Of a stretch of 64,000 nt of DNA, positions 17,301 to 20,300 are shown in pieces. The first letter of the stretch is position 1. Each line of letters starts with the position of its first letter. Under the pieces are notes generated by a model. That model did not search any database. It was given only the letters and a program-made list of their open reading frames with translations, and was not told where the DNA came from. Source of the DNA: Sabellastarte sp. h YS-2021 (taxonomy: Eukaryota > Annelida > Polychaeta > Sabellida > Sabellidae); contig OZ024927.1 in assembly GCA_964017235.1 (NCBI GenBank), forward strand, positions 27,237,160 to 27,301,159, written 5' to 3'. A program made the position numbers and the translations under genes.

Positions 17301-20300
17301 GGATCTGATCCACCCTGGAGAAAGAAGTTGGATATTATAATTTCTATGTAAGCTTTCCTTAAGGTAAGCTTCCAAGGAAGCTTTGCCTTTCCTTCTTCGA
17401 AGGAACTACACAACTAGATTTACGTAAGTAAATCAACTGTGACACAAGGTCACCTGCCCCACCCGCCTCACTGCAGGTAGGGCTAGTTGTGAGATAATGA
17501 AAGCAGAAATTACACAGAATTTTATTAAATAACATAGAATCTAAAAAACAAGTAATTATAATTTAAAACTGGATGAATTAAAATATAATTAAAATAATGG
17601 GTAACCAAGGTTACCTTATAGCCTAAAGAGACACGTAATGTCTAGACGATTAATGAAGAATTCTATTCCTGTTTATTTAAGTATTAACCTTATAAACGGT
17701 CAATAATACAGGGAAGAAGGGATAAAATATATTATTTTATTTTATTTATATTTATTTATATTTATAAACGTACTGTAAGAAACCCGCGTCTCTCAGCACA
17801 TGCGGTCTAGACGTGACGTCATCACAGGGGTTTCCCCGAGGATTCCCCCAGTTAGAATCGTGCTTTATATCATATTTTAACCCTTAAAATAGACCAATAG
17901 AGTAAAAGAACGGGGGTAAACCCTTGCAAAATCTATTTAATTTGATTTCAACAGGCATATATTCCTGTATAAAAACTACCAACGCGAGACGCGCATTACA
18001 AGAAAATGCTGTCTCGACAATAAAACGGAAGTTGTTTCCGGAGATTTTACTCGGCCAGGACTCGTTTGTGTTACATTTATACACTTTTAAACCCTAAAAG
18101 GGGTCCAATAATGAAGCAGATAGGGTTTAAATATTTTGTTTTATTTTATTTTACTGACAGGCATATATAAATATCCTGTATTAGAAACCCCATAAACGAG
18201 TCGCCATTGCTTTACGTGAATCCGGAAGTGGACTTCGGTTGTAAAATATAGTAAAGATACTTATCTGAACTATGAAAAGGCATCGAATTGTGATTCTATG
18301 CAATAAAATAAAGAAACTGGTGTAGTTTCCAAATCCAACAATAAGTATATCCTTGTAAAAATGAAATAATATTCCTTGCAAAATAAAGCATTGCTAATTC
18401 GCGTGGCCAACGAGAAAGTAGGGCGAGAGGTCAGAGGTTATCACGTGACGACAACTAGCAGTGTATCCGGTGGCTAACAAGAACTGTCTTTTTTTCTAAG
18501 ACGTTGGCCCCGGGTGTGGCAACCCGAGAACAGCATTAAGTCCCACATGGTAAGCTATTGTAGCGTAATAAAATTATAATGTTAATGTAATTTATATTTA
18601 CAGATTTTTTATACTTCACAGTCACAGTGATGAACCTGTTTTATTATGTCCAAGTCCACTCTGAATGAACATGCCTGTATCATTAGGATAATGCTAGAAC
18701 ACAACCTTTTTCGGCATCCTGAAATCAAATTCATTTTTCATAGGCAGGATGCTAATATGGAAAATATACAAACACCTTACAGTGTGTATTTTTTGTGGAG
18801 TACCCACCTTGGGGTGTAGGTTTTTGTAGAGTACCCACCTTAAGGTGTAGTTTTTTGTAGAGTACCCACCTTAAGGTGTAGGTTTCTGTGGAGTAGTCAC
18901 CTTAAGGTGTAGGATTTTGTAGAGTATCCACCTTAAGGTGTAGGTTTTTGTAGAGTACCCACCTTAGGTGTAGGTTTCTGTGGAGTAGTCACCTTAAGGT
19001 GTAGGTTTTTGTAGAGTACCCACCTTAAGGTGTAGGTTTTTGTAGAGTACCCACCTTAAGGTGTAGGTTTCTCTGGAGTATTCACCTTAAGGTGTGGGTT
19101 TTTGTGGAGTATTCACCTGAAGGTGTGGGTTTTTGTGGAGTATTCACCTTACGATGTGGGTTTTTTTGGAGTACTTACCTTAAGGTGTAGGTTTTTGCGG
19201 AGAACTCACCTTCAGGTGTGGGTTTTTGCTCCAGGGCTGGTTATTATTTGAGATATCATACAGATTTCTCCTCTGCACTGCTTTTACATACTCCTCATGG
19301 CCTTGTCTCAAGTAAATCACCTCATCACCCATCTGAGGAAAGTATGGCGTTTTCCTGGATATAAATGGTAACAAAACAATACCATTAAAATTCAAATGTT
19401 GCAACTTTTTGTATGTTAAGAACGTAATGCTAAAGAACTTGTAATGATAAGTACATAATGCTAAAGAAACAGAACTCAGAAGTCTTTTAAGAACCATAAG
19501 ATCTAACATGCTATAAGGTGAAATTTGTTAATATTTGGTAGGCACTGGCTACAGGAGACCACAAAGTACTTCAACTTTACAAGAGGATTTCAGTTAGGGA
19601 TAACAAGAAGGGATTCAATATTGAACTAAACTGCTTTGGATGGACTTTTAATAAAACCATTTGATACAATTCATAAAGCTAGTAGTCTTACCTCGGTATG
19701 GAGTCACTCAGCCACTCAGGTGGCCGGAATTCTTCCTTTAGCTCTGTGACATTCGTAATCTCCAGTGTCTCACGTTTCTGTAACCAAAACGCACAGTGTT
19801 TGGATAAAGAAATGTAAATTTATCACAGTATGTGAAATGCATCACCTAAGAAACTTATTTATCTTAGAATCATGGACAAGTTTTGATTAATCAATTTTGT
19901 GATTTTTATGACAAACTTTAGACCACTCACTTTTATGCAGATTTTCTGCAATGTTGGCTTCCTTTATATAATTTTAAAAGGCGTCTCCTGTAGTGAATTT
20001 TTATATTTTTTTCCTCATACAGATGTATGTTTACACCGACCTGAAACTTGGCATGAACTGTTATTTAATATGTGACCATTATCACAAGTGACACAATACT
20101 TACCAACACCGAGTTTTGCACTTAAGGGGAGTTACTAATCCCTCTAGAATAAGCACTGACTGACTTGTGGGCTGAATCTCCTTCTTGTGTCACCAGCTGA
20201 GACTTTGATTACAACACTTTAAACATTGAGCAAAGTTTCCACCATTCAAAAGATATACTCAAACATCATCTTCATTAAATTGCTTTTCTTTGAATTTTCT

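Follow-up and report, generated by a model that had tools for sequence, protein, structure and literature searches.

Several human genes are known to carry tandem repeats at or across the boundary between an exon and its intron. In intron 7 of F7, several 37-bp repeats of high similarity stand in tandem, the first of them containing the authentic 5' splice site, and only this first donor is normally used, as described in excerpts of one account (PMC6627357); it also reports that the F7 change +5G>A leads to skipping of the exon and to the use of a cryptic 5' splice site further downstream. In CBS, a 31-bp variable number tandem repeat (VNTR) sits where exon 13 meets intron 13; excerpts of two papers report lower activity with more repeats (PMC5188458, PMC1395315). 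In human segmental duplications, too, exon-intron boundaries have been found to carry tandem repeats, and these can alter splicing (excerpts of PMC2812944). Since these three cases have been described, even as excerpted here, the kind of element is already known; a literature search restricted to open-access papers found no genome-wide account of 5' splice-site minisatellites. Here we analyse a 31-bp minisatellite in a stretch of 64,000 nucleotides (the window; G000:C1:27237160-27301159) from the 1.79-Gb, 647-contig assembly of the annelid Sabellastarte sp. The array begins inside a coding exon of a predicted BRWD/PHIP-family gene on the minus strand and runs into the following intron. Most likely its mechanism is an ordinary one, in which the first donor is chosen and the copies are passive; what is new is the breadth of the phenomenon, that is, an excess of CAGGTRAGT minisatellites in the genome, rather than the single array.

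The repeat unit consists of the last 20 nt of the exon followed by the first 11 nt of the intron. It is therefore the exon's own 5' splice site region, as an earlier note on this DNA had proposed. The authentic junction (19210|19209, minus strand) is followed by 14 more AG|GT junctions, whose last exon-like bases are 19179, 19148, 19117, 19086, 19055, 19024, 18993, 18963, 18932, 18901, 18870, 18839, 18808 and 18776; the spacing is 31 nt except for one interval of 30 nt and a final one of 32 nt. Thus 15 donor-like AG|GT sites fall within about 440 nt. All 14 copies keep AG|GT, and the earlier observation that nearly all keep AAG|GT was correct as well, with AAG in 13 of the 14 and CAG in one (19117). 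The exon-end part is present in most units, as its proposed origin implies: the first 13 of the 14 copies align across all of it, one of them with a 1-nt gap. The array had been placed at 18790-19225 with about 13 copies; it is real, but that count was slightly low (14 copies) and those coordinates slightly short (18773-19228 by Tandem Repeats Finder, TRF).

As in F7, the end of the exon and the authentic 5' splice site both fall within the first repeat, and the later repeats retain the 5' splice site sequence; as in CBS, a 31-bp unit lies at an exon-intron boundary. The units also show the AG|GT juxtaposition that is typical of recursive splice sites. With one AG|GT per unit at near-constant spacing, the intron could in principle be removed in steps, a donor being regenerated each time, and such stepwise removal would leave the mRNA unchanged. 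We regard this ladder as extremely improbable, because the stretch before each AG (about CCTACACCTTAAG) is, judged by eye, a poor pyrimidine tract, and because single steps would mean introns of 31 nt. A segment holding AG|GT has been tandemly duplicated here, and the predicted gene contains no new intron delimited by the copies; its acceptor lies 6.4 kb beyond the array.

The splice from 19210 to 12340 that the earlier note had drawn agrees with the sequence: the acceptor CAG ends at 12341, and the next exon starts at 12340 in phase 0. When all 15 donor choices are translated, only the first donor keeps the frame open into this exon, and the other 14 all meet a TAA. Use of a distal donor had been expected to shift the frame, 31 not being a multiple of three. 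This argument needs correcting: units 4, 7, 11 and 14 add a multiple of three, yet they are stopped by the same codon. The TAA lies inside copy 2, at 19182-19180, and so comes before each of the distal junctions; all 14 distal donors are non-productive and yield the same truncated frame.

Judging from the sequence, we think it probable that the first donor is chosen and that the 14 copies are passive pseudo-donors. On this reading the minisatellite would have grown as the end of the exon, with its 5' splice site, was duplicated in tandem into the intron; the most upstream, authentic donor would be used and the copies would stay passive, by analogy with the 37-bp repeats of human F7, on which the primary paper is reportedly that of Borensztajn (2006). 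With the first donor chosen, the array would be tolerated because it would lie wholly inside the removed intron, and selection on the first copy (exon end and donor), together with exchange between copies, may keep the units donor-like.

The pattern of variation among units bears on whether the copies have a function of their own. We compared the columns of 14 aligned units, leaving out the degenerate unit 15. Positions -3 to +2 have one mismatch in total across the 14 units. The U1-pairing positions +4 and +5 have 7 and 6 mismatches of 14, and these two columns, together with +11 (also 6), are the three most variable of the unit; the permutation value for the variability of +4 to +6 is 0.0165, computed after looking at the data. 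Variation this high at +4 and +5 suggests that the copies are not being kept as strong U1 sites. The idea of a slippery splicing module, raised in the earlier note, is thus not borne out, and choice of the first donor is the better supported alternative.

Scored unit by unit as donors, the copies have U1 duplex energies between -5.2 and -12.0 kcal/mol, computed against the U1 5' end. The authentic donor has -10.7 kcal/mol; copy 2 has -12.0, units 6, 7, 9, 12, 13 and 14 have -11.3, and the other seven copies have -5.2 to -8.4. A position matrix places only copy 2 (8.50) above the authentic site (8.37). The copy that had been singled out as closer to consensus than the real donor is this one: it carries GTAAGTAC at 19179|19178 and does pair better with U1.

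The predicted fold of the RNA gives a second view of these sites. A perfect 12-bp palindrome, CACCTTAAGGTG, occurs in 8 of the 14 units, so that the RNA can pair between units. Folding the array RNA predicts strong self-pairing, with -130 kcal/mol against -64 +/- 17 in column-permuted arrays, none of 60 being as low. When exon and array are folded together, the donors of the copies are predicted to be more hidden than in 25 shuffles that preserve the donors (accessibility 0.25 versus 0.34 +/- 0.03).

Several of these results weigh against a passive array read from its first donor. Seven of the 14 copies have a U1 duplex energy at least as low as that of the authentic donor, and copy 2, only 31 nt downstream, exceeds it in predicted pairing. 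Copy 2 is also predicted to be more accessible (mean unpaired probability 0.51 versus 0.14), and self-pairing hides the authentic donor too, whose 0.14 compares with 0.32 +/- 0.11 in the shuffles. Folding predictions of this kind, moreover, disregard proteins and cotranscriptional folding. In a rival reading, some transcripts would use copy 2 or another copy, retain at least 31 nt with a stop, and be degraded, in which case the length and sequence of the array would tune the dose of the BRWD/PHIP product. Copy 2 matches U1 best and is predicted to be the most accessible of the donors, every distal choice leads to the same early stop, and longer alleles of the 31-bp CBS VNTR are reported, in excerpts of a review, with lower CBS activity (PMC5188458). 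Against such a module of poison donors, +4 and +5 vary more than nearly all other columns and are not conserved, and we consider it unlikely, though the least unlikely of the rivals to first-donor choice.

Pairing between units does not appear to be a general cause of expansion. Among 27 donor arrays from elsewhere in the genome (labelled L below), only three have a self-complementarity z below -1.5 (L040, L046 and L069), and we reject that explanation; at z = -3.0, the window array is unusual among donor arrays. The test omitted L041, which belongs to the repeat family of L037; L050 and L054 were without a consensus, and L071-L080 fell outside it. One of the three, L069 (G000:C1:128973400-128974600), is a 45-bp array with CAGGTAAGT and the near-inverse ATTTACCTG in one unit, and the predicted fold of its tiled consensus is far better than that of shuffled sequences (z = -5.0).

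The gene is identified by its downstream exons, which match the Pfam models BRWD_AD (1.9e-33 on the spliced stretch) and Bromodomain. A search of the same genome with the protein, in which only the best candidates were scored, gave four exon matches, all at the BRWD/PHIP locus. The spliced BRWD stretch had no match in the PDB at 0.01, and at up to 1 only weak matches to auxin response factors. The exon at 19354-19210 is itself covered by no library model in the Pfam scans; we place it in the BRWD/PHIP frame because of the continuity of the frame and because of its similarity to BRWD/PHIP proteins, with which it presumably aligns. The array sequence matches one place only in its own genome, in a search that skips very common words, and neither this search nor that with the protein found an allele, paralogue or processed copy that would reveal the used junction. 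The features of the locus are collected in Table 1.

Table 1. Exons, intron, donors and repeat array of the BRWD/PHIP-family gene, in window coordinates.
Feature	Position	Strand	Remarks
BRWD/PHIP-family coding exon, 145 nt	19210..19354	-	open frame ending PWSKNPHLK; acceptor CAG upstream; the exonic part of the repeat unit is its last 20 nt
Authentic 5' splice site AAG|GTGAGT	19204..19212	-	intron starts at 19209; phase 0 into the exon at 12340
31-bp minisatellite, including the authentic donor	18773..19228	-	TRF: 14.7 copies, 86% matches, score 600
Copy 2 donor AAG|GTAAGT	19173..19181	-	strongest predicted U1 pairing (-12.0 kcal/mol); most accessible in the predicted RNA fold
In-frame TAA inside copy 2	19180..19182	-	met via every distal donor; translation of all 15 donor choices
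Copies 3 to 15, all AG|GT	18770..19150	-	U1 duplex -5.2 to -11.3 kcal/mol
6.9-kb intron beginning with the array	12341..19209	-	predicted; acceptor CAG ends at 12341
Next exon	12204..12340	-	phase 0 start; 3' end set by eye at CAA|GTAAGG

The 6.9-kb intron also contains a reverse transcriptase match (Pfam RVT_1, 5.6e-14) at 15574-16227 on the minus strand, within a retroelement-like run of open frames at about 13.1-16.4 kb; the intron frames 13175-13801 and 14202-15512 are without a Pfam match. Elsewhere in the window, positions 34413-47449 are occupied by a 13-kb tandem array with a 155-bp unit, over which periods of 310 and 465 are reported as well.

For the genome at large, we searched for places where a donor 9-mer is present in three exact copies separated by gaps of 11-41, and grouped the hits into arrays by eye. 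Arrays found through exact donor copies are biased towards strong copies, and the pattern would miss the window array itself, because its copies mostly differ at +4 and +5. For AAGGTRAGT, the type of the window array, the whole genome gives 64 hits, which form 17 arrays; the reversed pattern gives 55, so there is no clear excess. For CAGGTRAGT, it gives 377 hits against 67 for the reversed pattern, with 23 arrays among the matches listed (29% of the genome) against 9 reversed arrays genome-wide. With a scrambled motif there are 30 hits, falling into 5 arrays, and its own reverse has 6; one of the scrambled-motif arrays carries AGGTGAGT itself (C2:184.4 Mb). As a single motif, CAGGTRAGT occurs 34,299 times against 19,613 reversed, totals that include long-period repeats. 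Thus the rate of arrays per motif is about five times that of the reversed motif (23 arrays, among the matches listed, versus 9; binomial p = 1.2e-5). The acceptor control TTTTNCAGG gives 128 array hits against 102 reversed; it is a weak test of 3' splice sites, because the acceptor motif taken singly is not in excess (142,234 versus 152,588). Periods that preserve the frame are not significantly enriched (14 of 29 are multiples of three, p = 0.07, not all 29 lying at proven exons). A comparison of donor strength across arrays is not used here, the chaining rule having missed junctions (in the window array it found 8 of 15, in L055 one). A long-period tandem array was also seen at G000:C1:139663-190582, with CAGGTGAGT about every 1157 bp in some 45 copies.

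The excess of CAGGTRAGT arrays bears on two broader readings. The copies could form a reservoir of U1 sites, left unspliced, that bind U1 and so aid exon definition or shield the 6.9-kb intron from premature 3' end formation. The many donor-like sites in the window array and the genome-wide excess would suit such a reservoir. The drift of the U1-pairing positions, the predicted self-pairing of the RNA and the want of a clear excess for AAGGTRAGT all speak against it, and we hold it to be very unlikely. It is somewhat less doubtful, though still improbable, that minisatellites in this genome preferentially arise at, or are anchored to, 5' splice sites, with dozens of exons followed by arrays of exon end plus donor in greater number than the frequency of the motif would predict, and that some arrays, that in the BRWD/PHIP gene included, are copy-number-variable U1 banks or poison donors; we have lowered our estimate of this slightly because the excess is seen for CAGGTRAGT only and not for AAGGTRAGT.

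Dozens of other arrays carry a consensus 5' splice site in many units, and some lie directly behind exons of recognisable genes. We examined 40, fetched in part (17 of AAGGTRAGT and 23 of CAGGTRAGT; L036-L055 and L061-L080). In 39 of these we could place the first consensus donor, L069 being array throughout; in several (for example L042, L054, L068 and L074) degenerate units precede it. Open frames from 24 of the 39 were scanned with Pfam. Five reach the cut-off, namely L051 (collagen), L053 (Ras), L055 (Arf), L061 (FAM76) and L080 (EGF_laminin, just above it), and L067 matches synaptotagmins in the PDB (1e-15). Two further matches are weak: in L064 the ankyrin match exists only when repeats are summed, with no single stretch passing, and L073 matches protein kinases below the Pfam cut-off (0.0019) and at 0.013 in the PDB. 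Protein homology therefore supports an exon on the 5' side in 8 of the 39 arrays, six strongly and two weakly; the other 16 of the 24 scanned had no match or weak ones only, several of them of coiled-coil type (L063, L075), and L040 had no PDB match. The match reaches within three residues of the donor in L053, L055, L064, L067 and L073, and stops 10 residues short of it in L051 and 43 short in L061.

We count only exons with protein homology, because the length of the open frame did not separate sense from antisense. In 29 arrays the open frame upstream of the first consensus donor has a sense median of 45 codons. The median is 26 at random AG positions (Mann-Whitney p = 0.023) and 51 on the antisense strand, which is no different from sense (Wilcoxon p = 0.85); frames of at least 30 codons occur in 18 sense versus 20 antisense cases. 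When ten arrays are read in their assumed exon frame, seven stop before the next consensus junction, L038 and L067 stop just past it, and L051 stays open past it. In L051 a collagen exon is followed by a 48-bp donor array (3.2 copies; oriented 2427-2579), and the exon frame is open past the next two junctions, so that retention of units could lengthen the protein.

The window array offers a natural test of how the first donor comes to be chosen from a series of near-identical ones. With numerous arrays of this sort behind different exons of one genome, the single-gene model of human F7 would become a comparison among genes, among unit lengths and among donor strengths, and one could see whether minisatellites are seeded or stabilised by splice sites.

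Compared with the described systems, as far as the excerpts of their accounts go, the window array is closest to that of F7, in that its donor-like copies also follow the authentic site into the intron. It differs in its 31-bp unit, in its 15 junctions, in the gene that carries it and in having one copy that out-pairs the authentic site for U1; and use of the first site only is a described feature of F7, whereas for the window array it is what we infer. With the VNTR of CBS it shares a layout, that of a tandem 31-bp unit at an exon-intron boundary; the CBS repeat is described in an excerpted review as non-coding, and the data on copy number and activity belong to CBS. In the human segmental duplications, as excerpted, the repeats vary between paralogues and are kept in or removed from exons (PMC2812944), whereas in the annelid gene one locus was found and the array lies on the intron side.
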